From positions 19,522,814 through 19,586,813 of the forward strand of contig OU744450.1 of assembly GCA_916610825.1 (NCBI GenBank): a DNA stretch of 64,000 nucleotides. Reading direction: 5' to 3'. Position 1 is the stretch's first letter; the number at the start of each line of letters is the position of its first letter. This document shows positions 35,297-63,955 of the stretch, in pieces. The notes under the pieces were generated by a model that was given only the letters and a program-made list of their open reading frames with translations, did no database searches and had not been told where the DNA came from. Origin of the DNA: Haliclystus octoradiatus (Eukaryota; Cnidaria; Staurozoa; Stauromedusae; Haliclystidae). Position numbers and translations under genes: made by a program.

Positions 35297-36297
35297 TTAG
35301 GTCAGTAATATAGAACAACATGTCAATCCACCATCTACTTTGGCTATTTCAGATGTCTCAACGTTAATCTTACTTCGATTTAATTGATCAAAGACTTGCG
35401 CAGACAGTGGAAATTCATCTCTGGAGCATACAATTAAAGGAGCAAAAATGACCGGCAGGCGCTACGCACTTAGGATCACGTGCACGCTTATTGTCATAAC
35501 ACAATGTTCATTGTTGACATGAATTTTATTACAAGTTAGGCCTGCGTATAACAATTGTTTCAAAGCGAGACGGTTGAATTACGCTAAGCATAAATTCAAC
35601 TTATGCTCGCAGCGGTCGCCGGTCAATTTTACCCCTTTAAAGTACCATTAGCAAAAATGCAATTAGCTGCTTGCTGATTTGGCACATGTAGAAATTTATA
35701 ATCAAATTTAGTATTTAATTTGATAATGTTTTCAACTTTTTCAAATCCATCAGCAATAACCATCAAATCTTGTCCAGCCATTGTTACTATTGATTTCAAA
35801 TGAAGTGCTTTTTCAACCTCAATGGTATGTACTTGATAATTTTTGAATGCATTACTTAATTGCTTGATGCCTTCTTCATTACTTCTCTTGGATAAACCAA
35901 CAAAGAATTCATTGCCTGTAAATAAAACATCTCCGCCATCCAATTGACCAGGTTCTGTCATTTCAATAAGGTCATATCCGAGAGACATCAAACAATCTCT
36001 CATTGCAACAATTTCTCCCCGTCTTGATTCATGTCCTGTACGTGTCAATAAAGCGATATTCCCACATACTATCGCAGCGTCTTCGACAAAAACACAATCT
36101 GGGTAGCTTTCGTCAGCTTCTAGAATCGTTACGTTAATGTTTATTCGTTTCAAAGCATCTACATATCTCTGGTGTTGTATCAAGGCTTTCTCGTAATCAA
36201 CAGGAGGACCATCCGAATCCAATCGTTGGGCTTCTGCAACCAGAGAACGCGGAATTCCTCTGCAGATAGCACGTGTAAATCTGAACGGTGTCCCCAT
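35297..36297 (-). pseudogene. Second DDAH copy, split by a 199-bp TTAA element
   Basis: From ATG 36297 this copy matches the intact DDAH almost base for base, with a handful of substitutions in the first 300 bp (e.g. T to A in the PDCVFVEDTA motif, E to K, Q to R) and essentially none in the rest. At 35636-35438 a TTAA element interrupts the frame after AANCIFANGTL and brings a stop codon two codons later. The 3' remainder (35437-35297) with the catalytic cysteine is still present but cut off. The truncated product of about 222 residues would lack the active-site cysteine. Similarity to copy one runs on about 100 bp past the stop, but only about 15 bp upstream of the start. Confidence 0.9.
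35438..35636. mobile_element. 199-bp TTAA-target MITE inside DDAH copy 2
   Basis: The copy without the insert reads CAATTAAAGTACC. Here TTAA occurs on both sides (35434-35437 and 35637-35640), and the insert has TIRs AGGAGCAAAAATGACCGGC and, reverse-complemented, AGGGGTAAAATTGACCGGC. Removing the insert and one TTAA restores collinearity with the intact gene, so the borders are certain. piggyBac- or Kolobok-type mobilisation is inferred from the TTAA. Confidence 0.93.
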
Positions 36298-37835
36298 AAT
36301 CAAACTGATGAAGTATAATAGCTAGACTGAAGCGCAAGCGAAAGTCAGCATTTGAAAGAGAAGACTAAAATTGTTTCGTTTTCATATGATTGATCCCTTC
36401 AACCTTAGTTGCTATGTTTCAAGTTATTATTTTCTACTTTAAAATGTTCCCGTTTGTCCCACAGCTGGCCCCATTTGGTCACCATACTTCATAATCGTAG
36501 TCTTATCCGATAGAATATGTTGACGCCATTCGTCAAAGAGAATAAATTTTCCATTCGTCCATAAAAAATTAAATCAGAATCAAGTCATATTAAAATTCAT
36601 CCTCCAAATCACGACGCGCTGCAGTCGTCATGGATGCCTTTGATTGACGGTTGTATTTAAAATTAATTATGCAGAAAGCGAATACATAGTTAGAATTTAT
36701 TTTTGATATGTTTTGCTTGTACCACTGGTTTCCACTAACAATTAGACAACTCGCCCTTGTTGTCTACCGTCTTGACATTAAGGAGGACCACGGAGGACCT
36801 TAATTGGTGACCTTAATTCGACGGTAGCCAACTCGGGCTCGTTGTCTAATTGTTAAATAGTATTCGTGATATTTATAGACATGGAGAAATGTACAATAAT
36901 TAAAAGAACTCTCGTACTTCTCTCCTAATAGAAAGCGAGCATCACACCATTACTGACCGGCCCTGACTGCAGTTTGTGAGGACACGGGCAAAACAGAATT
37001 GCTATCAACAATTATTGATATTTGATAGATGAAATAGAGATTATTCGTGAAAAACTTTTTGAAATTCGACATCGGGTGAAATTTCTTATCTAAATGATGC
37101 AAACCGTAAAAGTAATTCAATAGAAACTGATACATAAGCCATCGTCATCATCATGATTTGTTCACAAACCTGTTTAACCTGATAATTAACAGGAATAATC
37201 TTGCTTGAATAGTGACTGTAAAAACAGGAGAAAACCGGATCGATTTCATCATCTTGGCATTCAATATAAGTTTCTATCGGCGCGTGGATTTACAATTATA
37301 AAATAGAGGATTTAAACGTTCGCATCTGCTTACCACATGACACAAGGGAAATTTTATTACCGAAAGGATATTTGTTACACAAAAACCGTATTGCGTGCCA
37401 AAAAGTAGCATGTTTTGAAGGTGGTGGCTGGGGTCAAAGCATTATTTCATTTAGCGAGCTAATAGACAGTATAGCTCTGTAAGCCTCACCAGAACATTAA
37501 TCTATTTCACACAAGCTTTAGTACTACTGTAATAATAAATTTCTTAAACGTCAGGAAAAAAGTAGAGTTGGAAAAGCTATATAGTATATACTCTATTGCT
37601 TTCAGGTCAGGACAGAGGAGTTTTGATTTTATCAATCGTAAGATCTGCAACAGTTTACATGTAGATTGATTGGGAATGTAATAATCAAATTCAAAACAAT
37701 ATAGGACATACATAGATAGGTCAATGTCTGCAGGGACACGGATAGTCATCTTCGTTAAAATTCCAGCTTTGCATTCAAGGACAATCATTTAACTTTTGTA
37801 GTATGGTAATGTACATCCCATCGCATGTGTGACCG
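36298..37835. other. Intergenic stretch
   Basis: It contains a small hairpin MITE (36736-36855) and otherwise no supported gene. Frames at 36950-37135 and 37507-37788 lack family resemblance and splice context. Confidence 0.4.
36736..36855. mobile_element. 120-bp hairpin MITE
   Basis: TAACAATTAGACAAC on the left pairs with GTTGTCTAATTGTTA on the right. Pairing continues inward through TACCGTC and TTAAGG words. No target duplication is clear. Confidence 0.55.
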
Positions 37836-43400: not shown

Positions 43401-46400
43401 AGCAGATCTGTTGCGGTTACAAAGTTTCATTGCTTCTGTTGCATTACTATTTGCAATTTCAATTCTCTTTCGAACAGCTTTAATTTTCTTTGATTTGGTT
43501 GCTTTTCTAACGAGATATCCTCTCCATGCAGACTATGATTGAATTGAACAGGAAATAGATGAACATATATCAGATTGATACTTGATGCAAAGCCTGGTTT
43601 TATCTACATTAGGGATCAGCTAATACTGAATATCTAATACATATTGTCAAATTTCTGCACAACGTTTTTCCCTGCCGGTAATCAATGGTGAACATCAACT
43701 GTGAACTGGACTTTTAGGACACTGACTTCTCAATTTTGCTATAGAACATATCACATTTGGAGTTCATAGCTCTGACACAGACATAGGGAATCAGGTCTGG
43801 AAAATAGTATGACATCAAGGACAGTTTGATTGTTTGTGAAATCAAGAATAGCTCGATTATTTGTGATGGAAGTGAATGAGGAAAAGGTAAAATCTTGAGT
43901 TCAAAATCATGAAAATTGTTTGGAATCCGTTTTAAAAGTCTGAAAATTCTTATGGATTTGAACTACAGTATAAATCCGAAAAATAGCAAATTTTGTTTTA
44001 ATATGGACTATCTGAATCACAGGATATATTGCTATACTGATACTGATAAACATCATTATTTTGTTCATCATTTTTATCAATTATCAAAAAACAAATGTGA
44101 GGTCAGTATTAGGTTGAGAAATACAGAATCTAAATAATTATCAACTTATTTTTGAATTTGAATTCAATTCAAGATTATTTAACAAAGGAATCGACTAGAA
44201 AAAAGTCTATTCATCAGAACTGCAATCATGGAGTTTATAAGGTAGGCTACATAAGAATAATTTTGTTTGATATTAATTATCTCAGACACCCTATACAGTC
44301 CAACATAAAAAAGATTGGTTTGTGGGTTTGTGGACATTTTTTTTTGGGTTCATGGATGTGAAATTGTCAAAATTAGTGCAAACATTTTTTTGTAGATTGT
44401 TTATAAACTCACCAACTTTTTCTAAAGGGTACATGCTCTCTGATCCCAAATGGAAATTTCTAGTATACTAAGTATAGAGTTCAATGTTTTGTCTGAATAT
44501 CAATTGTAACAAACCTGTATAATGATGGCAGCTTGGTTAACTTTTCGAGATTGTTTTCTAGCAAATCTTTTCTCGTTGAAACTTCGATAGATACCCTGCA
44601 ATACTATAACAGACGCTTTAAGTTTGATGTACTGTTGACGACGAACATAGCCACGGTAGGTTGATTGAATTCGAACAGCTGCATTATTGATCACAATGAG
44701 ATTCTTTCTGATAAGATATGCCCTGAAATACGACTGGATTAGTTGAGCTGATGACTCCCTTCTCTGATCAAATAAAGTGACATCTGAGGAATCCTCAGTA
44801 TGGCGACATAGCACAATAGTTTCATTGAGATTGAAATCTGCATTGTTATTTTCCACATTAGTTTCCATTAGCTGGCTTTCACCTTCTTCAAATATATCAG
44901 ACAACAGCGACAACTCAAATGTTTTCCCTATACCTACAACAGATTGATCAAATTGTACAACCATATTTTGTTTCAATTTATATAGCCTCCAATTTTGCTG
45001 AATACATAAGCAGGCTTTTTTCATTTTCATAAATCGTTGGCGCATAACAAAGACTCTCCAGTGCCTCTGTATAATTAATGCAGCATCATATGATTCGTTA
45101 GCAGCAGTAGGAAATGTAACATTACAATCAACCTGCTTTGCATTATAGTCTCTTCGCATAATGTACATCTTGAACACCGATTGTATAACAGTAGCAGCTT
45201 TGTGTTGTTGTTTCAAATGTTTCCTCGATAAATGTCCCCGTACAACAGCTTGTATAGCAATACAAGCACCTTGAATGATTTGATAGACTCGAAAGTCCTT
45301 CTTTTGTTGCAAATATTCACGCCAAAATCGTTGTATTACAATTGCACTATAATTCCTTTGAAGATAAATGTTTCTTGTCTTTTTCATATTACAATGGGAC
45401 CTCCAGTGCAGTTGGATAATAGAAGCTGCTTGAAGTTGTCGGGTTGTTTCAGGGACAACATGATTTTCATAACCGGAATGAATATTTACAGCAAGATTTG
45501 GTTTATCTATATAGACGCCAGAAAATTTTTTAGAGAGAAGAATAGATCGCCACCATCTTTGTATACAAATAGCAGCATTGCACATAGAAATGAAGCATTT
45601 CTTCTGCATCCTTGCAAACATAGTTGCTCTCCACTTTTCTTGGATAATAATAGAAGAATTTCTCATGTTACAAAATGTGTTCCTCTCATTTCTGCATAAT
45701 ACCATTCTGCGATAATGCGTTTGTATACATATAGCAGATTTTCTATAAGCTAAATATACCTGTCTTTCTCTCTTTGCCAACAACGCTACTCGCAGCCTTT
45801 TCTGTATACATACAACAGCCCTCCTGTAAGTAAGAAACATTTTTCTTTGTTTGCACCCCAGAAGAGTTGCCCTCCATCGCCTTTGTATAGTCACGCAAGC
45901 AGACTTGTGCTCTTTGAATGAAGCCAGTTCACTTCTAGAAGAAATATAACTTCTCCATCTCCTCTGAATTGCAGCAGCTGCATTGCAATAGGATAGGAAT
46001 TGTTGTCTTTCTTGTCTGGCAAAAAGTGTAGCTATCCATCGTTGCTGGATGACAAGGGCTGATTCCAAATAAGCTAAGAAGCGCTGCCTTTCCTTTCGAG
46101 CTAGTAGAGTTTCCCTTAAACGTTTCTGAATGAGAATTGTTGACTGTCTGAGCAGGATAAAGTCTCCTTTTTGTTCACTGGCAAGCAAAGTTGCTCTAAA
46201 TCTGTCTTGGATAACAATAGCAGAAGACCTTTTGAGTAAAAATGATTCTCTCTGTTTCCTGGCTAGCATCGTTGCTCTCCATGAGTCTTGGATGAGAACG
46301 GCCGAGTTCTTCATCATTAAAAATGATTCACGCTGATTCTTGGCAAGTAGAGTAGCTCTAAATATATCCTGTATGACAATTGCATAACGTCTCTGAAGTA

Positions 46401-49400
46401 AATACGAGTTCCTCTGTTTCCTGGCTAGCATAGTTGCTCTCCATATGTCTTGAATGAAAATGGTAGAATTTCTCATCAGTATGAATGATTCACATTGATT
46501 CTTGGCAAGTAGAGTAGCTCGAAATCTATCTTGGATGAGAATGGCAGAACGTCTTTGAAGTAAAAACGATTCTCTCTGTTTCCTGGCTAGCATAGTTGCT
46601 CTCCATATGTCTTGAATGAGAATTGTAGAATTTCTCATCAGTATAAATGATTCACGCTGATTCTTGGCAAGTAGAGTAGCTCGAAATCTATCTTGGATGA
46701 GAATGGCAGAACGTCTTTGAAGTAAAAACGATTTTCTCTGTTTCCTGGCTAGCATAGTTGCTCTCCATATGTCTTGAATGAGAATTGTAGAATTTCTCAT
46801 CAGTATAAATGATTCACGCTGATTCTTGGCAAGTAGAGTAGCTCGAAATCTATCTTGGATGAGAATGGCAGAACCTCTTTGAAGTAAAAACGATTCTCTC
46901 TGTTTCCTGGCTAGCATAGTTGCTCTCCATATGTCTTGAATGAGAATTGTAGAATTTCTCATCAGTATAAATGATTCACGCTGATTCTTGGCAAGTAGAG
47001 TAGCTCGAAATCTATCTTGGATGAGAATGGCAGAACGTCTTTGAAGTAAAAACGATTCTCTCTGTTTCCTGGCTAGCATAGTTGCTCTCCATATGTCTTG
47101 AATGAGAATTGTAGAATTTCTCATCAGTATAAATGATTCACGCTGATTCTTGGCAAGTAGAGTAGCTCGAAATCTATCTTGGATGAGAATGGCAGAACGT
47201 CTTTGAAGTAAAAACGATTCTCTCTGTTTCCTGGCTAGCATAGTTGCTCTCCATATGTCTTGAATGAGAATTGTAGAATTTCTCATCAGTATAAATGATT
47301 CACGCTGATTCTTGGCAAGTAGAGTAGCTCGAAATCTATCTTGGATGAGAATGACAGAACGTCTTTGAAGTAAAAACGATTCTCTCTGTTTCCTGGCTAG
47401 CATAGTTGCTCTCCATTTGTCTTGAATGAAAATGGTAGAATTTCTCATCAGCATAAATGATTCACGCTTCTTCTTGGCCAGTAGAGTAGCTCGAAACCTA
47501 TCTTGGATGAGAATGGCAGAACGTCTTTGGAGTAAAAATGATTCTCTCTGTTTCCTGGTTAGCATTGTTGCTCTCCATAAGTCTTGAATGAGAATGGCAG
47601 AGTTCTTCATCAGTCTAAATGATTCACACTGATTCTTGGCAAGATGAGTAGCCCTTAAGTGTGTTTGAATTGTAAGAGCAGACTTTCTATAAAGTAGGAA
47701 TGACTTTCTTTGTGTTTTTGCTAGTAGAGTTGCTCTCAATCTTCTTTGAATAAGTAAAGTGGAGTTCTTGAGTGATAGGAAATACATTTGTTGTTCTTTG
47801 GCAATCAATGTAGCTTTCCATCTTTGCTGGAGCAATGTGACAGCCTGTTTGACTTTCAAATAATGTTTTGTAGCATTCCTTGCTTGAAGAGTTGCTCTCC
47901 ATTTGAGCTGTAACACTATACAGGAATTTCTTGTCATCAAGAATGATTCTCTATACTGCCGACAAATGCGAACAGCAATCCATTTCCGTTGAATAACCAC
48001 AGCAGCACGCTCATAAGATTCCAATTGTTTCTTTGAACGTTTTGATACAAAATATCTCCAACAGTTTTGGATTACGATTGCGGCAATTTCTTTTTGCTCC
48101 ATGAGTATTTGATTCTTTTTTGAAATGTTCTTCTCTCTCCATGTGCGTTGGACTAGTTTCACAGCACGTAACATGCTCATGAAATCTTTTCTGTCTTGTT
48201 TCATCTTTAGAACTGATGTCCACCATTTTTGAATCAAACGAGCTGCAACGTTTTGTCTTGAAGCTTTGAAAAATCGTCTCTGTATTAAAAATCTTTGTAA
48301 ATATTCTCGGACATGGAATTGAATTATTCTGGCTGCTTGTGATCTGCATCTGAGTTTATGCCTGGTTAAAAATCCACGTGCAATAGCCTGAATAAAACAA
48401 TAGTAAAATCTAACAGCTCTAATTTATAATGTTACAAGGCCCAGTCAAATCATCCGCTATTGTTCTAAATCTGTTATTTAAAATTCTTTGATCACTCTTG
48501 ATAAAAAAAAATAGTATCTTCTATTGAATAAAACCTGTATATAAAGGTAACCTGTCTATTAGACTGGTCCAAAAAACGTGAGAATTGGAAATCTTATCGG
48601 GCTCATCAATTTTCTTGTGATTTGAAATTGGGAAATGGGGTCCCAAGGCTCCTCTAAATTGATCCGAAAACCATAGACATAATAGATATAGACCGCTGAT
48701 GGGGTCACGTGACGTGTGGCACTCATGGGCAGCCAAAATGGTAGACACATGCGCCCAAAAGTTACAGTTGTATGTTGTAAACTGACCGCAAAAGTCAAAA
48801 TTCCAATACAATTTTGTATTTGAAGTAGACGCAAAGTGCTTGAATTGATTTAAATCGCTGCATATATCATATATATTTGTCTTGCTTTTGAACATTTTTA
48901 ATATGGTTTTAATGATACGGAAACATTGATTATAATAAAAATTTGCATATTTTGATATCAATTGGTATCCGCTACGCTTGTTTGCGATGGTACTGCTGGT
49001 TATGAGGCTTAATTTGTGGCTATCTTCATAAATTTTAGACTTTATAACTATTATCACTATGGGGTGTAAAATATTTGGATATTTGGTGAATTAAATTTGA
49101 ATATTTTTCGTAGCATTATTGCAATTTGTTTGTTATTGTTTCAATATCAACTTTTCTACACTCATTCTGTGTCCTGTGTTTTGCTGTAACCAGCAGTAAA
49201 CATGCACCTTGTCATGTAAATACAGCTTGGATGATTAATAAATGTTAAATCTGAGCAAACTCTGAAATTTTGATGTCTTATTGTTACAAAAGCAGCGATA
49301 TTCCTACTTACAAAATTGGAATATTTCAGTGAAAATTTGATTCGAAATTGAGCAGATTTGATTCGAAATTGAGTGATACACAACAAAACTGTTAAATTCA

Positions 49401-52400
49401 ATCATATTTAGCTGTTTTAAAAGTAGCTCGAAATATCCGGCTCATCTATCCTTCTATTTTCTAACAACAATATTGGGTCAAAACACTGCTTTCCCCGTCA
49501 CTTTGGGAGCATGTGTCAGCCATTATGGATCCCCATAGGTGCTACGTTTTAAGCCCGCTTTCGAACGCCATCAGCAGTCTATATCTATTATGTCTATGGG
49601 GAAAACGCTGATATTTTTCAAATGAAAATACGTCCTCTTGGTGAAAACATATTCTAAAGTTTGCTTAGGTGGCTGTGGAGGTAATGATCTGAATAATCTG
49701 AATTTATTAATTTAAATGTTTGAATCTTTATCATTGCCTTAAACTATGGGGTTGAATACCATGCATAACAAAACGTGACTTCCGCTGTGAAAAAGGATTA
49801 ATTAATCTATAAGTGTCTGCTATCAAGATTCAAACATTTAAATTAATAAATTCAGATTATTCAGATCATTACCTCCACAACCATCTAAGCAAAATTAGAA
49901 TATGTTTTCACAAAGATGACGTATTTGTGTTTGAAAAATATCAGCGTTTTCCTCATAAACTTTACGTATTAATTTAGAGGGGTATTGGGACCCCATTTCT
50001 CAATGTCAAATTAAAATAAAATTTGTGTACATCATATTTTGAAAGCATTCTGAATAAGAAAATCGATGGGCCCGATAACATTTCAAATTTTCAAGTTTTT
50101 TGGACCAGTCTACTGTCTGTAATGGTCAATTTATCTACCTCTTGTAGCTGGTTGTTATATAACAGGTTTCACAGTACACTAGTCTAAAACCTGAACATTG
50201 TTGTGTATGGTTATTCAGCTAACCAAAAACTATGGTACAGCGTAATCCGCTTAAATGCAAGTCAAAATACAAACAACATTCATTCCATTTATGAAGAATT
50301 GTTTAACAACGACTTGACTGTAGAATAATTTTCAAGAAATCCAATGTCAGGCTGCAAACAAACGAGAATATCACTTATTTGATTTGCATTCATTTAAGCG
50401 GGTTACACTGTATATAAAAATAAAAAAAAATCGAGCTCAGCACAAAGTCTAATCTTAAAAGGGGATACAAGACTGATGACCAGGGTTTGATAAAATGAAG
50501 GATTCAAGGACTGAGAGTTCCGGAAGACTAGTACAAATTCAGAAGGAAGGAAGAGGAAACAGCTTTATTGAAGTTGATACAATGAGAATAAGAAGAATTA
50601 TATTTCTTTTCTGTGGAAGATACATGATATGAATGTGCAGTTTTTATCACATTTTTATGGAAATCAATGGAAAATAATCGTTTGCTTGATGTAGTTAACC
50701 CAAAAAATTGTAGAAGCAAAAATTGGAGCACCTGAATGAAAAATATTTTATCGGACCATGCCAATGACTTATTGAAACATTTAAATTTTGTGTACAATAC
50801 AGTTCCCATTGGAACAAAAAATTGGGTAAACCCATTTTGCGAGGCAGCGAGGCATCTGCTTGAAACCGAGGCATCTAACAGATGGTGATACAGATTGCGA
50901 GGGAGGATTTCGTTTTACTATTTAATAAAAAACGAAGTGTCTATTTGACCGGCAGTCGCAGCCATTATGGATTCAACTGCGCGTGCGCTGACAGTCAATT
51001 ACGTCATTCACTCGATCACGTGTTTCACTCGTCTCAGTATTAGGGTTAGGTTCCGATCACGTGATCCACCCGTTTAGTGTTAGGGTCAAGTCACGTGATA
51101 ACCACTCGGTCGAGTATAAATTCATTTCTGTTTCATTTTCTCTCGTCGGTTGGCGTAGCTCATTCAAATTGAGTCTGATTAGAGTGCAGGGTATGCTGGT
51201 TCGAGTCCTGGTCAATCCGAAATTTTAATTTACTTTCATTATTTACATCCCGAAATGTAATTAAATCAAAAGTAAATCGTAAGGTATAAATCGTCCTGCT
51301 CTCATTGCCTCGCTTGTTATGTCCTGCTTCGCTCATTACGTCACTGCCTCGCAATATGGGCCACTCCAAAAAATTAAGCATGAAAAGTTGTGACTTATGC
51401 ATGCGCTATACAAATCCGGATTCCTACAAATATACCTAACATACAAATCAAGTTCCTGAAATTGATGAATGGTAGGCCTACACGTTCTTACACAACATTA
51501 ATAAATTTATGCTGCGGGGAGTTTGCTGAAATCTAATGATGTATTAAGCGTTGTTTTATACAATGAAATAACTTACCTGTAATTTCACTACAGCATCTGT
51601 CTTCACCTAAACAAAAAAAAAAAAGACAAATAAATGCATGTATTGATACAGAATATAAGCACAAGAGAAAACTTATTTTAAAACATTATAGGCTTTATGC
51701 ACATCTTTGGGAGGCTGCGTTAAAGCGAGGCAGGTGCTGTTAGAAAGTTCTCTTTGAGTTTTGATACGATGGCGCACTGTTGTGTTCCTAATTGCACTAA
51801 TAATTGGCGACAAATTGACGAGAATACTGGTAAAAGACGTACAGATATTTCCTTTCACAAGTTTCCTAAAGATACTGCTATAACTGCAAAATGGATTGTT
51901 GCTATTAAAAGAGACATAGGCCAGCTTTTTCAGGTGAGAATTTCAAAACATTTCGATGTTGGTTTTACTTGGCGTTTGTTACTGTTCGTTCATGGCATGA
52001 TTAGATAGCTCTGATCAGAACAACCTGTGCTATAATTGTGCATTTTCTTTCTAGATTACAAGTAGTACTTATGTATGTTCAAAACACTTCGATCTTAATG
52101 ATTATAAATGGTGCCAATCAGGCGTAAAAAAGTTGAAAACTGGCGTTGTTCCTTCGATATTTACTTGGTCAAGGACAGGCACGAAGCGAAGGAGACCAGC
52201 TGATAGATCACAATATCAACAGGCTACAGATCATTTAACAAGGTAAATAATATTATATGATTAAATGTAACCTCTTATTACTGATACTAGGCCTAATACT
52301 CCTTGGGTAAGGCTATGCGATGAATTTGACATAATTAAATCTTTGCTTGTTTACATTTTCACAGTCCTTGATTGAACGTTATAGCTTTATCGTCGACTGC

Positions 52401-55400
52401 TATTTCTAGTTTTGTCGTCTCATTCAATATTATTTTGAATTATTGTGAACCAGGCATCATAGTATAACCTTTTCATTGTTTATTTCTTGTAGTGAATCAG
52501 CATTTGAACTAGCTGAATCTGAATCCAATAGTTCTGCAGAGGCAGCTCCAGTACTGTCAATTGAAGAACAGTTGGTGAATGCAAATGATTTTATTGCTAA
52601 ACTGCAGAGTGACATGGAGGAGCTGAGGATTGAGCGTTTTGGCCTACATCGTTTGTCAAAGAACCCAGAACAGATGAGATTCTACACTGGTTTCACTAGC
52701 TACGACTTATTTATTGTATTTTACAATTCCATATACCCTCATGCTGTGGAGATGATTACCTGGACCAAAAAGCAACGGTATGATGCATTGAAGAGCATGT
52801 CAATGACCCCGAGCTACAATATGAAACTACCTTTAATTGACCAGTTGTTCATGTTCCTACACAAAATTAGGCTTGGTTCATTGAACCAAGAACTTGCCGA
52901 TAAATTCAATGTTCACCAGTCTACGGTGAGCCGAAACACTGTCACATGGGCCAATTTTTTATACTGTGTCCTTGGGTCACAGCCTCTATGGCCATCAAGA
53001 GAGCAGGTAAATGCGAACATGCCTGATTCCTTCAAAAACATGTCACCGTCAACAAGGGTCATACTAGATTGTACGGAGTTAAAAGTGCAGTCACCTTCAA
53101 GTTTGGTTCTGAACTCCCAATTGTTTTCCCATTACAAAGGAACAACAACTTTTAAAGGATTGGTTGGCATAGCCCCTTCTGGCCTTGTAACCTTCGTCAG
53201 CACCCTATATGCTGGTAGCATTTCAGACATTAGTATAACAAGGGTATCTGGAGTGCTTGGCCTCTTGGAGCATGGGGATGGAGTAATGGTGGACAAGGGT
53301 TTCAAAATTGAGGAAATGTTAAAGGCTATTGGTTGTACCCTGGAAATACCAAACTTTCTAGAAAAAAAGGGGCAGTTTACAGAGGAAGAGGTACAACATA
53401 ATGAGAAAATTGCAAATCTACGTGTTCACGTTGAGCGGGCAATTCTGAGGATGAAGGAATTTCATATATTTGATTCTGCCCTTGCCTTAACTCTTGCTGG
53501 TTCTGCACAACAAATATGGTCAGTCAGCTGTTTACTGACAAATTTTCAAGGGACCTTAATTAAGCAAAAGCAATAGAAATATGTAAATAAAAACAGTAAG
53601 CGTTTGTATGATATATCATATTGTGATATTATAATACTAACCAATTAATTAATTTCAATGGATATATAGTTTATAATTACAGTTTCTCAAAATCCACTAT
53701 TTAGATACTAGAAGTGGTAAAAAATACTTGAAATAAAACATATCAAGCTGGAATTTCATTGTGTCAAATTTATCTTGATCAAAATAAATACGTTCACAGT
53801 GGTAATCATCTGCACAGTATACGAAGAAGTCACACCAGGGATCTCCCGTTATGCCTAGCTGCCCTATAACTTGATAATAATATTCATTATTCTCGTTTAA
53901 CTTCAACGATCCATCTACTTGCAACTTCAGGTATGCACAATTGAAAACGGAACTTTTCGACAAGGGACATTTAATCTCCAAAAGACCAAATTTATTATCT
54001 TTTTCATCAGGATCGTAGACTCTTCTATCCGGGGAGGCTCCAAGATAGGGGGCAGAGGGATTAATAACAAAGCCAACATCATAGACATTTCTCCCGAATG
54101 TATTTGCATAATACGCAGCAGCTTTTGGTTCAGTTTCAATACCATGTCGCATTGCTTTAGTTTGATTAATTGGCTTTTTAAGATCAGTAGCCAGCTTCTC
54201 AAAGTTTGCCTTCCTGCTAGCCACCCTCTTGAATTTTGATGCTGTCAAACGATATTTCCTGAGTAAGTGCCACCTTTTGGTATCAGATTGCTTTCGAGTT
54301 TCTTCCTCATACTGATACGATTGCTCCATGGTGCACTGCATGGTGCTTAACATACACGATGGCTTGTAATTTAGGGGTAAATCAATCGATCCTTGTTTTA
54401 GAGGGGGAGGGTAAACAAGGCAGGAGTTGGTGCATCTTTCAATAAAATAATACCTTCTTCATTGTTTCTAGGAGGTTCAGGCAATTGATAGGATAGCATA
54501 CTACCTTTTCGAACATTGCCAAAGATGGTTTGTACAAATTCAGTGGGTTTGTTTTTGGACCAAATCTGTGAAAATTGTGGTTCTGGGTCCATAAATGGAA
54601 AATGGGTAGATAACTCACAATCAATTCTAACATTTTCAAGGGACTCCCTGACAGCATTATATACATTAGAAGTAATTCCACAAGACCTTTTTTTTGATGC
54701 CCCACCTGTAGGCTTTTTTGGTTTCTGTACTACAAGGGATGGTACAGATTGAGGGGATAAACCAAGACAACGAGCAGGTATATGCCAGGTTTGTGGAAGG
54801 CTAGTTTTCGATTCAAAGAGTGGGACAGAGGTCAAATTTAATTTCATATAGTGAGTCAACGTGTACAGACTAGCAATTACATGGTGACACACTCCTTTAC
54901 CGGCAGCACAACTGCATTTATTGGAGATTATAGACTTTCCATTAAATTCAACAGCGATCGAGTGAGGGGGTTCATTTTTCTTCTGGGATCGAAAACACTT
55001 GCACCGTAATCCCCACCGAATATTATCTCCTTCGTACACTGAAATTGAATGATAGACTGAATAAATATTTCACAATTATGAAAATATTGCAAAGTTTCCT
55101 TACAAGAAAACTTGAAAAAAAGCGCCTGATGAGAACTGTAGAATTATGTTGAAGAAATAATAATAACAACATAGGTTGAATTGATTTGTATGGTATATTT
55201 CTTCTTATGAATAATAATATTAATTCCAAGTTGACATGTTGATAGTAGACTGTACATTAAGTTCTCATAGTTTTCATAGTTTTCATTTACTGTATTTATA
55301 GTGTTTAGATAAATGCTAGATCATGCATGGTCATTTGTGAGTCATGCGGGGAGTCATGTAGGTTCTCCTATGTTCTAGAATGTTCTAGATGGTTCAGGAA

Positions 55401-58400
55401 GGTTCCTACATAACTCCCCCCGCCAGATGGCGGAGCCATAAATAAAAATGCATGATATAGGCTAAAAATGAGAAAGATTAATGCTTTAATATATGCTAAA
55501 TTGTAAATAATAAATGTGTGTAAATATAAATGTAAGTAATTATGGTATTGTATATGGTATGGTATTGTATATATTGTATATGGTATAATTATGGTATGGT
55601 ATAGTATTTGTTGCTTATTCTTGTGTGTTTGATGAATTCAGTATTTTCTTGAGTTGTTGCTTATTCTTGTGTGCTTGATTAATTCAGTATTTTCTTGAGT
55701 TGTTGCTTATTCTTGTGTGTTTGATGAATTCAGTATTTTCTTGAGTTGTTGATTATTCTTGTGTGCTTGATTAATTCAGTATTTTCTTGAGTTGTTGCTT
55801 ATTCTTGTGTGTTTGATGAATTCAGTATTTTCCATGAGTTGTTGCTTATTCTTGCGTGTTCAATTTTAAACTCATTTGTGAGTCATGCGGGGAGTCATGT
55901 AGGTTCTCCTATGTTCTAGAATGTTCTAGATGGTTCAGGAAGGTTCCTACACGCCAAACATCGAAGTTACCTACCTTCAAAGTCATGAACATATTTCTCA
56001 AGATGGAACTTGTAGGCGCGTTCGGAGGTGACTTTGACAATTTTCTTAGTTAAAATAAACGTCTCAATAATAGAATCAGTAATAATTGGGATCCTCTCCA
56101 AGCATCCATGGTAAATACGATCAAGAGACGACGAAGATAAACTTGGTATTGATAACGCCATTTTGCAAACAACGAAGAAGTTGAGGTCGGTATTAGTTCA
56201 TAGTCAACATCGGTCCCTAGCGTCGTCGCGCGTCATGTATTTCGTTATCCTTTAGTCAACATCGACCCTAGCGTCGCGCGCCATCCATGCCTTCGTGATT
56301 AAAGATGGCCGCTAGTTGCCGAGAAAATTAGAAGAAACTCATCATCAGAGTTCAGACTGTTCAGAGTTGCTACTCTGCTACTTAAACATATCTAGAATAT
56401 TTTCGTTACCATCGTAAATAATCTTATTCATTCCGCTGTTTTTAATGTATTTTTTGAATGGCAGTAGAATGCTCAGAGTCCCTTCGTGTCGCGAAGCGGT
56501 GTTGTTGACCTGTTGTCTTGTTGGTGATGGACTGGTGGATGGTGATGGTGTCTTTAACTTATAACGTGACCTGGCTTGGTTGGTTAAGTTGGTGGCCGAG
56601 GTCTCAAATCTGAAAACAAGTATGCTTGTTATTGTATCAGCAATTATTATTGCTGTATAAACTATTTAAATGATCAATATGTGTGTTTGATTGTGAGATG
56701 TGGTCTATGGACTATGATGATTTCAAGAATACATTGGCCTAGCCTAGTAAGTCAGATATTCAATTTACCCTCTTTTATGTTACATGCTATATCTCCTAGT
56801 TCTGTTCACCGTGTTTCTTACATAAGTTAATATTTATTCAAAATGTTATTTTTGATATATCTTTTATATATTGTGACATAATGTGTTGTAAGTTGTCTTA
56901 CTGATTGAACATAGGACCATTATAATACATTAAGACCATTATATATTATTGATTTATTATTTAAATATTTTACATATTATATTATGACATAAATATACAC
57001 ATAGTGACATAGGCCTACAGTCATACATACATGACATAATCAAATACAGTGTTAAACAGGTGCTACATGTGCCTATCTGTGATTTTGATTCAAAATAAAG
57101 CACAACAAAAACAAGAATAGTCGGTGTCTGTAAACTGCAAGCTTGCATACGTGTGTACTTTTCACATAAATTTTCATAAATTTTCACATTTCTCCGCTAT
57201 TCCAGAAAGGAGATTGAATCCGTGCATAAAAGTTAACTTTGTGGAAGTTTCAGCCTTTGATGTGATCGTTTTTTTTGTGACACATTTATTTGTAAATAAA
57301 TATGTTAATATTAACTTTTTTCTTATAAAAAACCAAACACATTTTTATGGAGATATCGTGCAATCGTTCTCGTTTTTTGTACACCTGCAGTATTACTAGG
57401 CCTATGTGTTTTAGGCCTACTGCTTTTCATTGACGATCGGGGATGTGAAACTACTCTGTGACATCAAATTGTCAAAGGAGGCTGCCGTGAAGGCATTGCC
57501 TTTTAACACCCCAAAACATCACAATTTATTTGGAATCCAAGGGTTGTCACACAATCCCCATCTCAAACATTATATTTCCATTCTATACAAACTCTTGGTA
57601 TTTCTGACATACTCATATGACGTTGATTCGTTGCAATTATTTCTGTCAATTTCTCGAATGATGACAATGAATTTAAATTCCTAAATCTTTTTACCATAAC
57701 CTTGCATGGTTTTAGTTGTTAAAATTATATTCCTGCAACATTTTTACACTTATTAAGCAAGAAGAGAGGCTATATCACACTATTTTTGCGTCATGGAAAT
57801 ATTGTATTCCTCAGCTTGCAATCCAAATGACTCAGTTCAATATGCATAATCTATTTGAAAACGAAAAATTTAATATTATCATATATTTATTTACACAAAT
57901 CAATGTCTTGTGAAAAAGCAATCAGAATATCAGATCAAATGTCCATACAATCTAGACTCATCCTGTAGCGCAATGCGAGACGATAGATGGTGAGAATATT
58001 ACACAGCTTCAACCTCCTTTCTGGGGTAAAATGTGAAAATTTATGAATATTTATGTAAAAGTTACGCACATGCGCAAGTAAACACAGTTTACAGACACCG
58101 AGGATAGTCCATTCATAGAATCATTGGCCTAGCCAATGAGCCAGCCAGCCGAATCTTTGTAATTAACAATACATCGTTCCAAATGGCCCAAATCTTTAGG
58201 CCTACGCCTAATGCCTATATTCCCCTCAAGTGTTCCATGAGCGTGTTTTAGTGTTTCCTAATATTTATATAGGTTGGAAATGAACTAGTGCTTGCCCATT
58301 TTACCATTTCAGCAGCAAATTTAGTGCATAGCATAGGTCTAAGCTAACTCACCTACAATTTTGGAATTTATTCTATACTTAGCTAGAGACTATCAAGCAG

Positions 58401-61400
58401 GGTGTCACAAAAGGTTTATGAATCATGTCAACAGATTGAAAACCTTAGACAAATGTTAACAGCTTTTCTGAAATTAAAATATTTTTAAGCATGGTTGGGC
58501 CTATGAATGAATTTTACATGAATACATGAATTTCACAACATAGAAAGATGGAATATGTAAGTCATGATTTTGGATAAGAAGACAATGTTAATAATTGAAA
58601 ACCTTCTGAATTTTCGCTGGCCAGTGTCTGTTACTTGCGTGTGTGCGTACTGCGTGCTTTTTCAGGAAATACGTCATAATTTATTACCTTTTAGACTACG
58701 ACCTCCACTTACTATTTAGGATGTCATGTTATGAAGATGTTCTGGCTTGGCTAAATTTGGCAGTCCCTGTCATGTTGTAATTGATGGGGACTTTACTCCG
58801 ACTTAATTTAGGCCTATGAATGATCTAATTTATTGAACATTATTCGACCGCTATTAAGCAATATCAATAGCTCATAGGAAACTGTGCGCCATTGCTTTGC
58901 ATTATAACTAGCACAACTTTAACAAGCATCTACATGACTCTCTTGCTCAAAATATGTTTTTGAAAACTCCTGATCAAATTAGAAATTCTCATTCGTGATA
59001 TCAAATTCGAATTGTAAGATCGATTGTGTTTTTGAACCTAGATTTGCTATGGTGATGTGGCGTCAAACTCTAAAACAATAAGGCAGTCTTCAAACGTCGC
59101 GCTTTACATGCGCCGTGCTTTGCTTTGTCTAGCACGGCAGAATTGGAATTCTGGTTTCAATTCATTTTAGACGGCGTGAAATTGCCGTGCTTTGGCCATT
59201 GACGTCATCAAAATTGAAAGGCGTAGTCCGCAATTATTGAAAGTAAAACTACCTTTAGCTAAATTTAGCAGTACCTGAAAATGATGTCACACTGTCTGAG
59301 ATATAAAGATTTCGGTTTAAGAGATCTAATATTTATTAGTTAAATTTCCTTCGAATATAAATGTTTTAATTTAAAAAAACAATTAAATCTCATAAAGAAA
59401 TATTTGTTCTATCAAGCTATGTTACCAGTTAACATGCAACTGAAATGAAGGGCATCCTGAAATGTTTTCAACCTACATAGTAATAACATATTAATAAAAT
59501 TCACTATTTTAATAGACAGCAGAATACCAAACAGTTGAGCATAATGAAGTAGTTTATAATTGAACTTTATGTTCATCAATATCATCGAGAAGTGAATGAA
59601 ATGATAAAAAAACATCATAAAAACTACTATTTTATCCCCAATTCGCATGAATTTGACCGAACATTCGTCTGAAAACAGACGAATAAAAGCTCGGCATCCT
59701 AAAAAGCACGCCTTATAAAACAACTGTCGTACTGACGCCGCTCCGAGCGGCAACCTTATACGTCGCGCTTTTGCCAGGTCGCGCCAGAAGATTTGCACGG
59801 CGCATGAAAAGCACGACGTTTGTAGACTGCCTAAGATTGATCAATTCATTTTCGTTTCGAATATTATAAATAATAAAAAACGTTTTATGATATTACCGTT
59901 TAATAAACATACTATACCAATTTTAAATTAAAAATTAGAACTTGTTCTTCTTAATTTCAAGGCACTATATATGTATCACATTGATACAAAATTTCCTAGA
60001 ATTTATTCCTTAGATTTTATTTCTTAGATTTTCTGTTGATAAAACCTGTTAGAAACGATGCAAACTATATGTGAATTTACTGTGTGGGCTTCAGGCTGAA
60101 TCCCAATCAATGAAAGCAAAAACAGCAATTGGTGCCCTGTGGAGAACACTTGGAAGGTGGACTTTAAGAGAGCATTTTAGTTACATCTACACATACAAGG
60201 TTAGGCCTATGCCTATCTTAACATGTTCACTTCCAGTAAGTAGCTTGTCCAACCCCTCAAAAGCATTAGAAAATTCTTGAAAAGGCTTTCTAGACAATAT
60301 GAAGATCTTCTACAGGCATAATATTGGATGAAGCACGCAAGTTACAGACACCGTTTGCTGGCCTTCCGAGGACTTCCAGGAACCATGTTTCCAGGATCCT
60401 GCACAGTAACAGCCTGCTAGTCAGTACTGCTTGCATGTCCAAACCCCTGGAGAGGAAACGTTGATCAAATTCAAGATAAAAAACACAAGTAAAGTTGAAT
60501 TGTTCTTTCCAATCTCAAATTATTTGTCGCACTTCTAAGTAACTCGCATTCAACAGCAAAAAACAGCATTCAGTGAATATCTTGAAATTTGAAATCTCAT
60601 CTGAACTACAAACTGGTTATTTAAAACATCAAAATATATTTATAAATATATCATGATTTGATTTTAACAAAACAAAGATAATAATTCAGCAATACATTCA
60701 GTGGAATTTATTTTCTGCCTCTGAGCGCAAGATATTCAGAAGCGGGACTTGCAGTTTGAGATGAAAAAAAAAGGAATTTACCTGGTGTTTTTTATCAGAA
60801 ATTTGAGCTGTGTCCAGGTTTTGGACCTGCCAAAGACAAACCTAACCTTTTGTAAATTAGTTTACTAACAGCTGAACACAATTAGTTAAACTAGGGCTAG
60901 GCTACATATGGTAGAATTATAAGGCACTTGATTTACGATTACCATATGCCTAATAATCATTTGCTTAATAAAAAATTAAGCCCTACATTTAAAACATATC
61001 TAGGCCTATTATATTCATATAAAAGCAATAGGTTGTTGTTTCTACTTATTCTATTTATCCACTCTCAACATCCTTATTCCAAGAAGGGACAATTTGGGGT
61101 TCTTTTGATTTTAATGATTCTTGGTTAGTGTCAATTAATGTTGCAAATTTTCAATTTTTAGGAGAGGTCAACTGCGTAGCCTCCAGATGTCGCTATGGTG
61201 TATTCTAGATTATTATGTGGTTATGTGTGTCATTTACTTGGGTCTGTTCTAAATTAGTTTACGATATATAACTATTGATTATAAGATTATTGACTTTGTA
61301 ATATTTGCTAGTTATATTTGAGCATTATTGATTAATTATTGAGTGTGTCATATTTCAAAATACAGTACATCACTTGAGTTTGCTCTGTGATACTGATGGC

Positions 61401-63955
61401 TAAATGTGCGCGGTAACTTTAGAATAATTGAGTCTTCTACTTCAAAACCAGCTTAAGTTTTTAATGATTCTCTCAATTGGAAGGAAATTACTGACATTTT
61501 TTTCTTGGCCGTTTAGTAGCCGATGTCAGTTTCACCTGTGAGTCAAATATTATATCTAGGTTACTACTGTTTTCACTAGGATTATTGATCTATACGTCAT
61601 ATATATATAACACTAAAAATATTGTCTTGCTTGTACCTCAATATCAAGGAATTTGAGAATTTGAACAATGAGAACTTTGCTGCTGCACCCCAATTTCTCG
61701 AATTTTGAATCAGTATTCGGGTTTTGCGGTAGTAATTATCAGGTCTCTGTAAATTAGATGTAATTTTGATAAGTAACATTATTCTGCACAATAAATAATA
61801 AATAAAGCCAAACCTGTTATAATGGTCACCTCTATGCATCAGCCACCTTTCTATAGTGGTCACTCTTCCAATATGTAAATAGTATTTTCTATTGAATCAA
61901 CCCTGTATATAAGGCCACCTGCATATAGTGGTCAATTCATATCCCTCTTATAGTTGGCTGTTATGGTCACTGTATACAAAGTAATGAAACAAAGCACCCT
62001 TATCACATTTCATGCGTTTTTGATGACTTAAGCACACCATGCTATCTCATGATGCAATTAATCAGAATGGATGGTTTTAAAGGTGAATCATGGTGGGGGA
62101 TTTACGATGAATACTTCTATGTATCCCTATGTCAATGTGTTATGGTAGGATTCAAAATGATATGGTTGGATTATGTAAGGCAACCCTTGTTAATTGCGAA
62201 CTAAGGATGAAAAGACACATTTGGGAGATGGACCCTGCATGGCATTTATTTTCTTGACTGTTTCATCAGAGCTGTAACCCATCTTACAAAATATAACTAT
62301 TGTTCCTCTATGTGTGTGGTCAAACCCCAAAGAAATACTTATCTTGGCAAACATGGACCATTATAGCAAATACTGACTCTTCGCTTCTAGGAGGAGCTCT
62401 TCAGCTTCTTTTTCTGTGTACACGCAAAAAGATCAATTTCATTTCCAATCTCAGCCCTTATGTTACAAAAGATATATATATACAAGGTATGATAAGATTG
62501 ATTCAGGTTCTATATGCAAAAAAATTAATTTAATATCCATTAAATTTTTTCAATTCTTTGTCATTAAATCATAATGATATTAATAATTCAGCCTCCAGGC
62601 TGTAGTTGTTTGCTTTTTGCAGATTTCGAAGTAGGTGCACACTCATCTCGATTTGAAAAAGTTATGAGTTCCTCCTCTTCGTCTTCGTGCCATACAATAC
62701 TATATTATTTACACATTTTTATTAACCATTTATTCTATCTATTTGTAAATTTACAATAGCTTAATTAAAGTTTTGAAATAATGTTGAACACATTGTATTA
62801 GTTTTGCACTAGGACAGACAAAAGATATAGGATTATTAAATTCATTGATAAAGAATTAAAGGATGATCAAATTAATTGTAATTTTCTGCACAGTACGTTT
62901 TGAGATTTCCCGGGAAAGAAATAAACAGCCTCACTCACAATATATATAATTAATATATATTTAATTTCGAGGATAGCGCGCTGCATTCTATGTGCGCTGG
63001 ACATGGCGCGCGACGACGCTAGGGACCGATGTTGACTATGAACTAATACCGACCAGAAGTTGAACAGTCTTTCTAACAGTTCCTGCCTCGCTTTGACGCA
63101 GCCTCCGCAAGATGTGCATAAGGCCTATAGCTAGATCAGTGGTTTTATTTTAGCTGATTGAAAAAGAGAAATTGAAGAAACACTCTCGCGCCAGAAGATA
63201 ATTAAAGGACAAATGGACAAATGAAATACAGTGCTTATTATTTCAAAAGTCTTAAATGACAATTAGTTACCCTACTTTACAACGTTTTACTTTACAACGT
63301 TTTTTTTATAAAATCAAACCGGTTTTTATCACACTGTTTCAATGTGTTATCTTATGCCATTTTCTAATGAGAAATGTGTCATTAAAACAAAATAATCCCT
63401 TGATAGGTAGGAAGGGGGTCACAGCAACAAAATGCTGACATTTGCACTGTTGTGTAAACTGTGAGCTTGCATTTATTGTTGTGCGTGCCTGCGACCAACA
63501 GTCTACAAAGTTTTCCGTTTTATTGAACCCTGACATTTGATACAAAAAGAGAAACGACCAAACCATTATAACTAAGCTACATATTAATTTAGATACACAA
63601 TACAACGCATGTGAAAAAAATCCATGAATTCATAAGCAGTTCATGAACAGTCACGGAGAGTTCATGAATACGTTGAATTGGTTCATGAATGTGGAATTGC
63701 ATGAAAGTTCATGAACTTTTAGGCAATTTCTTGATCATGAACATGCACAAACTTTTTTCACAGGGGAATAAACAAACAGTTGGACAATGGACATACTCGT
63801 AAGATCTTTATTGCCTTTTCTCTCCAGGCCAATTGAATACATCTAGCAGCTCGTGTTTCTTTGCGAATGTCCAACAAACGTGCACATATGTATGACACAT
63901 ATGTTATTACAACCTTAGATAAAAATGAGAAGTTACCTGTATTGCAGCTATCTTA
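40138..63955 (-). CDS. ASPM: ASPM / abnormal spindle, C-terminal half in seven confirmed exons (5' end outside window)
   Basis: ASPM is a microtubule minus-end and spindle-pole protein with calmodulin-binding IQ repeats; in humans its loss causes microcephaly. Exons in order: 63913-63797 (39 codons), 51606-51577 (10 codons), 48387-44515 (1291 codons, the IQ-rich giant exon), 43532-43340, 42179-41980, 41163-40927, and 40410-40138 with the stop. All phases agree. The first exon reads [20 protein letters not shown]. After about 46 IQ-type motifs come [18 protein letters not shown], then helical ARM-like segments (CNRSLPS), then the end [18 protein letters not shown], matching vertebrate ASPM order. 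The calponin-homology region must lie beyond 64000. A further upstream exon seems to end at 63937 (KIAAIQ before GTAACT), but its start is unclear. Confidence 0.94.
40927..41163 (-). CDS. ASPM: ASPM exon, helical repeat region
   Basis: 79 codons in phase 0, from a TTTCTTTGTAG acceptor to a GTATAA donor, reading [20 protein letters not shown] onward. It matches the region of ASPM following the CNRS motif in length and hydrophobic pattern. Confidence 0.85.
41980..42179 (-). CDS. ASPM: ASPM exon with CNRSLPS motif
   Basis: 200 bp joined after a split GCT codon, with a GTAAGT donor. The motif [14 protein letters not shown] corresponds to the vertebrate LIRSCNRSIP segment of the ARM-like C-terminal domain. 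Confidence 0.88.
42600..42740. repeat. TTCATGAA-cluster dispersed repeat
   Basis: Words such as AACAGTTCATGAA, TTCATGAAATG and TTCATGAACACG recur within 120 bp in an ASPM intron. It belongs with the clusters listed at 1866-1925 and 63610-63770. Confidence 0.45.
43034..43055. repeat. (GT)11 microsatellite
   Basis: A perfect dinucleotide run in the ASPM intron between the exons starting 43532 and 42179 (minus strand). Confidence 0.9.
43340..43532 (-). CDS. ASPM: ASPM exon linking IQ array to helical domain
   Basis: 193 bp, [20 protein letters not shown] onward, containing [14 protein letters not shown], a near-exact match to the vertebrate [13 protein letters not shown] block. The last IQ motif is completed across the junction with the giant exon. 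Confidence 0.92.
44515..48387 (-). CDS. ASPM: ASPM giant IQ-repeat exon
   Basis: This exon corresponds to the single giant IQ exon of vertebrate ASPM. It opens A-I-A-R-G-F-L-T-R after a TTTATTCAG acceptor and closes at CAG before GTTTGT. IQ motifs recur about every 27 residues. The first ([11 protein letters not shown]) is split across the junction with the 30-bp exon before it. The centre is a block of near-identical 54-residue units. Confidence 0.95.
46400..47560 (-). repeat. ASPM: Tandem 162-bp coding repeat in ASPM
   Basis: A 54-codon unit made of two 27-residue IQ repeats ([16 protein letters not shown] and [16 protein letters not shown]) recurs at exactly 162-bp spacing. The same TAAAAACGAT word falls at 46561, 46723, 46885, 47047, 47209 and 47371. 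The central copies differ by only a few bases, while units on either side are more diverged. Confidence 0.92.
48562..50110. mobile_element. Middle TA-target element of the nest, 1549 bp
   Basis: Ends GACTGGTCCAAAAAACG and, reverse-complemented, GACTGGTCCAAAAAACTTG are bordered by TA at 48560-48561 and 50111-50112. Inverted similarity extends about 60 bp. Two further inverted arms of about 130 bp lie at 49605-49735 and 49824-49955. No transposase frame. Confidence 0.75.
48676..49594. mobile_element. Inner TA-target element of the nest, 919 bp
   Basis: TIRs GACATAATAGATATAGAC and GTCTATATCTATTATGTC are exact apart from one subterminal base, bordered by TA at 48674-48675 and 49595-49596. It sits inside the left part of the middle element. 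Short frames inside it are unrecognised. Confidence 0.78.
50483..50550. mobile_element. Fragment of the CAGGGTCYGACAAAAG hAT MITE
   Basis: CCAGGGTTTGATAAAATGAAG, then TCCGGAAGACTAGTACAAATTC, matches the left half of the 11621-11792 copy. The right half is missing. Confidence 0.5.
51141..51222 (+). repeat. tRNA-like sequence, possible SINE head
   Basis: GGTTCGAGTCC at 51198-51208 fits the RNA polymerase III B-box, and GGCGTAGCTCA near 51152 partly fits an A-box at suitable spacing. The T-stem halves do not pair, so this is more likely a tRNA-derived SINE or tRNA pseudogene than a working tRNA. Confidence 0.35.
51577..51606 (-). CDS. ASPM: ASPM 30-bp microexon
   Basis: Ten codons, [10 protein letters not shown], lie between a CTAAAC...TTTAG-type acceptor and a GTAAGT donor. 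Phase 0 on both sides. Its last residues complete an IQ motif with the start of the next exon, which is the strongest reason to accept it. An ISL2EU-like transposon ends only about 80 bp upstream of its acceptor. Confidence 0.82.
51769..53576 (+). CDS. THAP-DDE transposase, intact, three exons, 478 residues
   Basis: Exons 51769-51933, 52055-52242 and 52493-53576 join in phase with canonical AG/GT borders. Residues 1-90 form a THAP zinc finger: CCVPNC, FHKFPKD, KW, CSKHF, then the GVVPSIF signature. A short coiled coil follows, then a helix-turn-helix ([20 protein letters not shown] onward to HQSTVSR). The DDE_Tnp_4-type catalytic core has candidate acidic residues D310 (LDCTELK), D385 (MVDKGFK) and E432 (HVERAIL). 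No stop or frameshift interrupts it, so it may be active or recently active. The methionine at 52476 belongs to the intron. Similarity to PIF/Harbinger transposases is expected because the families share this fold. Confidence 0.88.
53697..56161 (-). CDS. YqaJ-type nuclease with SWIM zinc finger (transposon ORF2), one frameshift
   Basis: Exon 1 is 56161-55975 ([12 protein letters not shown] onward, 62 codons plus one base). Exon 2 starts at 55038 after TTTCAG and completes a GTG codon. It carries a SWIM finger ([13 protein letters not shown]-x-C-x6-C-x-H), then the YqaJ exonuclease core: [24 protein letters not shown] and LLEIKCPLS. Between these, near 54404, a run of five Cs breaks the frame. 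One more C would join the upstream frame (ending [10 protein letters not shown]) to the downstream frame, which reads [16 protein letters not shown]. So the gene is either decayed by one base or affected by an assembly error. The intron (55974-55039) is bloated by tandem repeats. Confidence 0.8.
55331..55951. repeat. Pair of 80-bp direct repeats bracketing a 46-bp minisatellite
   Basis: Positions 55331-55410 and 55872-55951 are nearly identical (TCATTTGTGAGTCATGCGG onward to GGTTCCTACA). From the TG to the CA inside, each looks like a very short LTR. No flanking duplication was found. Between them, 55609-55860 holds about five and a half tandem copies of a 46-bp unit (TGTTGCTTATTCTTGTGTG onward), and 55540-55600 is rich in GGTAT words. 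All of it lies within the transposon ORF2 intron. Confidence 0.75.
57121..58101. mobile_element. TIR element nested in the Mutator-like insert, 981 bp
   Basis: Termini TCGGTGTCTGTAAACTG and CAGTTTACAGACACCGA are perfect inverted repeats. Inverted similarity continues about 80 bp inward through TTTTCATAAATTTTCACA and CAGAAAGGAG words. A target duplication is not clear; ATAG occurs near both flanks but not in register. Frames at 57124-57399 and 57430-57684 have no recognised family. Confidence 0.72.
59082..59831. mobile_element. Harbinger-type MITE with TAA duplication, 750 bp
   Basis: TIRs GGCAGTCTTCAAACGTCGCG and, reverse-complemented, GGCAGTCTACAAACGTCGTG are bordered by TAA at 59079-59081 and 59832-59834. 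A 3-bp TWA duplication fits PIF/Harbinger. Subterminal GCGCCGTGC words are also shared. No intact coding frame. Confidence 0.75.
61807..61975. mobile_element. CAGTCAAACCTG-family MITE, degenerate copy
   Basis: AGCCAAACCTGTTATAATGG onward matches the 5947-6124 copy along its length, ending near TGTTATGGTCACTGTA. The right terminus is altered. Confidence 0.6.
63610..63770. repeat. TTCATGAA-cluster dispersed repeat, richest copy
   Basis: At least six TTCATGAA or near-identical words occur here, ending in a CTTTTTTCACAGGG border. The cluster at 7243-7320 ends similarly (TTTTTTCGCAGGG), which suggests a shared right end. It sits about 30 bp from the ASPM exon at 63797 on the donor side. Confidence 0.5.
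63797..63913 (-). CDS. ASPM: ASPM exon, start of IQ region
   Basis: 117 bp in phase 0, with a TATCTAAG acceptor and a GTATGT donor. It encodes [19 protein letters not shown] and continues with [13 protein letters not shown], close to the human segment TYLCSRLLDLRKE. Confidence 0.9.

Follow-up and report, generated by a model that had tools for sequence, protein, structure and literature searches.

We analysed a 64,000-nucleotide stretch of the Haliclystus octoradiatus genome (GCA_916610825.1, contig OU744450.1, positions 19,522,814 to 19,586,813, forward strand; hereafter the window), in which a DNA transposon of the ISL2EU type occupies positions 51688-63128. The element proper measures 4,558 bp and is interrupted by a 6,870-bp insert. 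A repeat scan recovered two nested pairs of inverted repeats, 51687-51747 with 63069-63129 (61 nt, 90% complementary) and 56178-56238 with 63001-63061 (61 nt, 93%), the outer of which corresponds to the terminal inverted repeats (TIRs) of about 60 bp described in the initial annotation. Trimmed to the TIRs proper, the outer pair is bordered on both sides by the dinucleotide AT, the target site duplication (TSD) (Table 1).

The transposase gene comprises three exons, which splice to an open frame of 478 amino acids (aa) with no inner stop, as the initial annotation of a gene without visible defect had it. The spliced protein carries a full THAP domain, HTH_Tnp_4 (E 4e-12) and DDE_Tnp_4 (E 6e-39). 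Across 12 aligned element frames the acidic triad is retained, with the first and second D present in 12/12 and the E in all nine frames that reach it. A PDB sequence search with the transposase gave no match up to E 0.1, and the same query gave no match against viral contigs.

Convergent to the transposase lies a gene with one intron, whose product matches the YqaJ domain with E 6e-20. The convergent THAP-DDE and YqaJ/SWIM layout reported earlier is therefore right as to both genes and their orientation, with two amendments: the SWIM match reaches 14.8 bits, below the Pfam cut-off of 19.6, and the YqaJ frame is frameshifted in the window copy. The frameshift falls upstream of the YqaJ domain and amounts to one base within a homopolymer, so it may be an assembly error. 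A single PDB entry, 3syy, which we take to be an exonuclease of the YqaJ/lambda-exonuclease type, matched the YqaJ protein up to E 0.1 (E 1.4e-9), aligning over the ASPD and EIKCP motifs. The two proteins differ in that 3syy is a free-standing 216-residue exonuclease, whereas the protein described here is transposon-borne and has an N-terminal part with the sub-threshold SWIM match.

Table 1. Features of the ISL2EU element and its inserts, in window coordinates
Feature	Position	Strand	Basis
Left TSD of ISL2EU, AT	51688..51689	.	flanks of copies; single AT at empty copies of the L009 target
Left TIR, 58 bp	51690..51747	+	52/58 positions identical to right TIR
Transposase exon 1 (THAP, first part)	51769..51933	+	THAP E 4e-10; GT donor
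Transposase exon 2 (rest of THAP)	52055..52242	+	spliced THAP E 7e-18; AG and GT signals
Transposase exon 3 (HTH_Tnp_4, DDE_Tnp_4), stop codon included	52493..53576	+	domain scans; splice signals; acidic triad
YqaJ/SWIM exon 2, one-base frameshift near 54,400 in window copy	53697..55038	-	domain scan, copy alignment
Insert resembling a long terminal repeat (LTR), YqaJ intron	55132..55951	.	repeat scan, copy alignment; not in ancestral element
YqaJ/SWIM exon 1, start codon at 56161	55975..56161	-	copy alignment
Left 9-bp TSD of nested element, AGAAGTTGA	56176..56184	.	comparison with uninterrupted siblings
Nested TIR element, 6,870 bp, separate from ISL2EU, no recognised gene	56185..63054	.	TIRs, TSD, copies
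Right 9-bp TSD of nested element	63055..63063	.	comparison with uninterrupted siblings
Right TIR of ISL2EU	63069..63126	-	inverted-repeat scan and TIR alignment
Right TSD of ISL2EU, AT	63127..63128	.	flanks of copies

The transposon is surrounded by a host gene on the minus strand. An open frame at 63761-63952 stops at a donor site after the residues KILR, an exon of 30 nt is located near 51580-51609, and a 1,307-aa frame at 44503-48423 resumes after an acceptor. When joined, these exons restore an IQ-like motif, which places the element inside an intron of the gene. Pfam placed IQ above its cut-off in seven stretches of the 1,307-aa frame, and a Pfam scan of the 64-aa frame returned nothing. 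The intron placement given in the initial annotation thus holds by its splice sites and IQ repeats; the name ASPM derives from those repeats, and we use it as a presumption. No further host exons were recognised by eye in the 3.5 kb outside the window.

Sibling copies and the order of insertions

The left end of the element, used as a query against the 262-Mb assembly, gave 15 matches with the window counted in. Copies with the same ends thus exist elsewhere in the genome, as the initial annotation had suggested checking, and its TIRs are not a chance match. Two of them, L009 on contig C2 and L010 on contig C11, share both ends with the window copy at a length of about 4.57 kb each; both ends were also found in L011 and L013, which span about 3.7 and about 3.3 kb. 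The right end was not seen in L012, and L014 and L015 showed the left end only. The TSD is AT on both sides in all five copies that have both ends (window, L009, L010, L011 and L013), settling on one of the two dinucleotides, AT or TA, named earlier.

The window copy is 99.65% identical to L009 and 99.60% to L010, and the three copies range from 99.56 to 99.65% among themselves. Six copies (window and L009 to L013) were compared gene by gene. Both the window copy and L010 have an open transposase; that of L009 contains a stop and that of L011 a frameshift. The YqaJ frame is open in L010 (509 aa, with a 457-aa open frame that carries the YqaJ domain), and the window copy, L009 and L011 each have a frameshift in it. 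Many indels affect both genes in L012 and L013. Among the six, only L010 has both genes open.

Three copies, those of the window, L009 and L010, carry an LTR-like insert in their YqaJ intron; L011, L012 and L013 lack this insert. Its LTR-like part (55132-55410, 279 bp) ends in 80 bp that are repeated at 55872-55951, and it gave at least 41 matching rows in the genome (40 scored of 603 candidates), of which nine pairs among those listed lie about 1.4-1.5 kb apart, the arrangement of a short LTR element. The insert resembles a terminal-repeat retrotransposon in miniature (TRIM), with the second copy reduced to 80 bp and a 46-bp tandem repeat inside. Since the window copy, L009 and L010 stand at three sites, are nearly identical and all bear this insert, the insert-carrying element itself has moved.

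The 6,870-bp insert is present in the window copy alone of the six. At its position, L009, L010 and L011 are uninterrupted and read AGAAGTTGA once, where the window has AGAAGTTGA on both sides. Reading the 11.4 kb between the outer TIRs as one composite element, as the initial annotation did, has in its favour that these TIRs and the AT duplication bracket the whole span. We rejected it, and hold it to be extremely improbable: the four siblings with both ends (L009, L010, L011 and L013) are 4.57 kb or shorter, the insertion site is uninterrupted in three of them, and the segment 56185-63054 has TIRs and a 9-bp TSD of its own, with 16 further near-full matches to its left end elsewhere. The span resolves into a 4.56-kb ISL2EU element and two later inserts. 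The comparison of copies shows the sequence of events: the LTR-like insert entered the YqaJ intron first, the insert-bearing element then came to be present at three sites, and the 6.87-kb element arrived last and, of the copies examined, only in that of the window.

L009 provides a view of its target before insertion. It sits in a repeat, and its joined flanks gave at least 41 matches in the genome (40 scored of 974 candidates), of which all 40 scored full-length matches cross the joint and one further short match does not. In all four empty copies that were fetched the sequence is GTCGATATTACGCAG, and a single AT takes the place of the two that flank the element in L009. The empty site with a single AT that had been looked for was accordingly obtained for this sibling and not for the window insertion.

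The published description of ISL2EU gives an AT TSD, a transposase with THAP, HTH and DDE domains, a second open reading frame (ORF) with a YqaJ domain, and an average length of about 4.8 kb (PMC4482050). The window element matches all of the first three and is 4.56 kb long, so the ISL2EU-like identity proposed earlier is upheld. According to the same source, groups are defined by TSD composition, the target letters of ISL2EU are conserved as A|AT|T, and its TIR usually begins with GG, which is not required. PIF/Harbinger, as treated there, has a related DDE transposase and a two-gene plan in common with the window element but combines a TWA TSD with a Myb/SANT second gene, whereas here the TSD is AT in 5/5 copies and the second gene is YqaJ, with no Myb model. 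Spy has no TSD, inserts at AAATTT and has a single ORF, in contrast to the TSD AT and second ORF found here.

Some observations count against this placement and history. The A|AT|T preference was not evident in the only five sites scored, with A on the left in 1/5, T on the right in 2/5 and both in 0/5, and the TIR begins with AGG in seven of eight left ends and GGG in one, so that the start is A/G-GG. The window copy further departs from the published form by its two later inserts and its broken YqaJ frame. For the window insertion, a joined-flank search of the genome found no exact empty site; apart from its own flanks, only two matches crossed the joint, both of them weak (68-69 bases; 82% and 78%). 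Each of the two flanks of L010 matches a repeat family of its own; no clean empty site came to light there, the few flank matches that pass its joint extending by at most 14 bases. With these points weighed, we are highly confident, judging by TSD, domains, second ORF and copy comparison, that the window holds, inside an intron of an ASPM-like gene, an ISL2EU cut-and-paste transposon that moved recently. It adds a young ISL2EU family to an already known group.

Pairing of the transposase and YqaJ genes across the genome

Both genes were searched for in the whole assembly. For YqaJ, the best 150 of 157 candidates were scored, giving at least 95 matches at 80 or more merged places; for the transposase, the best 113 of 272 were scored, giving at least 115 matches at 109 or more merged places. 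Divergent partners are missed in both searches, and both place counts are lower bounds. Among the matches scored, a transposase match lies no more than 4 kb away from 54 of the 80 YqaJ places, compared with about 0.3 expected under uniform placing. The layout is convergent in 54/54 pairs, many of which are divergent from one another.

Comparison of the window family with L034/L035 (70-73% protein identity) gave a proportion of nonsynonymous differences (pN) of 0.171 for the transposase and 0.173-0.175 for YqaJ, with a synonymous proportion (pS) of 0.82-0.83 for both. Across 13 elements, the protein distances of one gene correlate with those of the other at r 0.92 (74 of 78 pairs), a value reached in 0/5000 permutations; the 13 elements were picked for their frames, and near-identical copies among them raise the correlation. 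The active-site residues D, E and K were putatively assigned with the help of the 3syy match; of 18 distinct places, reaching down to about 30% identity, D is retained at 18, E at 16 and K at 17. These places derive from 32 loci, 28 of which have a frame of at least 100 aa and 21 one of at least 150 aa, and they include several close copies.

The convergent layout is kept, the constraint is near that of the transposase and the nuclease residues are retained, for which reasons we regard the nuclease as a probable working part of the element: it is probably under selection and probably has a catalytic role. That it has some role in transposition we consider very likely, and the related elements elsewhere in this genome point to a retained component of the machinery, not a passenger. 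Several results pull the other way. No partner within 4 kb was found for 26/80 YqaJ and 55/109 transposase places among the matches scored. Synonymous sites are saturated, which makes pN/pS a rough upper bound, and in comparisons with L037 and L041/L018 YqaJ is the less constrained gene (pN 0.23-0.25, against 0.18-0.21 for the transposase). Close pairs scatter, with few changes each: L053/L057 gave 0.94 for YqaJ and 0.14 for the transposase, and L034/L036 gave the reverse, 0.14 and 1.12. Finally, L009 shares its broken YqaJ frame with the fragment L032.

The fragment (C8:5004950-5005709) has the YqaJ frameshift of L009, and no transposase was present in the fetched flank; it is either a broken copy that moved or a duplicate. 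A broken frame at both places is compatible with action of the nuclease in trans or with a nuclease that is not needed. The latter would make the gene a passenger without a role in transposition, in keeping with the frameshifts in the window copy and L009, both of them young, with the frame broken alike in L009 and L032 and with the 55 unpartnered transposase places; set against the uniformly convergent pairs, the similar constraint and the co-divergence with the transposase, we judge such a passenger improbable.

For the mode of action of the nuclease we consider two readings, to each of which we give only tentative credence. TnsA acts beside TnsB as an example of two-nuclease logic, and ISL2EU might by analogy be a two-nuclease transposon, in which YqaJ would be a catalytic partner required by the DDE transposase, would cut or process a strand at the ends, and would serve in trans those copies in which the nuclease gene is broken. 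It is no less and no more doubtful that the YqaJ/SWIM protein serves in DNA binding or import, its nuclease activity unused; the Myb-like protein of PIF/Harbinger, a helper, offers the model. Retention of D, E and K at nearly all of the 18 places argues against a helper of this kind.

As to mechanism, we propose that the THAP domain would bind the TIRs and that the DDE domain would excise the element and join it to target DNA cut at AT with a 2-bp stagger, with the YqaJ/SWIM protein assisting in trans. Candidate steps for the latter are second-strand cutting, end trimming, and repair at donor or target. The window copy would supply transposase at most, because its nuclease frame is broken.

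The pairing of a DDE transposase with a YqaJ gene, called unusual in the initial annotation, is a published hallmark of ISL2EU (PMC4482050); the same source (2015) gives the function of the additional ORF as unknown, in line with the unclear role noted earlier. Among the titles and abstracts listed by searches of an open-licence library, none tests the role of the ISL2EU second ORF. What is new here, at the level of sequence comparison, is the finding of 54 convergent pairs in one genome with similar constraint and joint divergence of both genes. Together with one sibling in which both genes are open, these pairs of fixed layout make the role of the second gene testable in a simple cell assay.

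The nested element and neighbouring genes

The TIRs of the 6,870-bp element match at 49 of their first 50 positions. Its left 313 bp gave 17 near-full matches in the genome including the window, 12 of them at 99-100%, and one sibling is 99.7% identical across 6,870 bp. A 9-bp TSD was found in 4/4 copies examined (window, L061, C8 and C11). The element belongs to a large, young and apparently non-autonomous family of its own.

Its longest frame in the window is 142 aa, compared with a mean of 97 and a maximum of 135 in 60 letter shuffles, and frames of 178-183 aa occur in the C8 and C11 copies. A Pfam scan of eight window frames returned nothing above cut-off, so that no transposase of the family turned up among them; no search by transposase family for an autonomous relative was made. 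We therefore describe the element as without a recognised gene and do not claim proof that it is non-coding. The 9-bp TSD, which we take to be linked to the Mutator-like class, is a likeness to Mutator-like elements (MULEs) shared by all four copies; as a difference from them, no MULE transposase was recognised in the eight frames scanned with Pfam.

Longer copies were considered as the autonomous form and rejected, as those on C8 and C11 carry other transposons. The C8 copy (17.9 kb; L059/L060) holds a P-type transposon with a 477-aa frame, a TNP-like_GBD domain, an 8-bp duplication and short inverted ends, the last two read by eye. The C11 copy (13.9 kb; L062) holds one long frame of what is presumably a Pao/BEL-like LTR retrotransposon, to go by its motifs only. 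Two inverted-repeat units lie within the nested element of the window, at 57142-58078 (50-nt arms) and 59081-59832 (38-nt arms), and are perhaps older insertions resembling miniature inverted-repeat transposable elements.

Elsewhere in the window, two very similar DDAH-like exons occur on the minus strand at 32611-33453 and 35632-36321 (Pfam DDAH_eukar), likely a tandem duplication. A Nup153-like gene with RanBP-type zinc fingers occupies 19612-23679, also on the minus strand.
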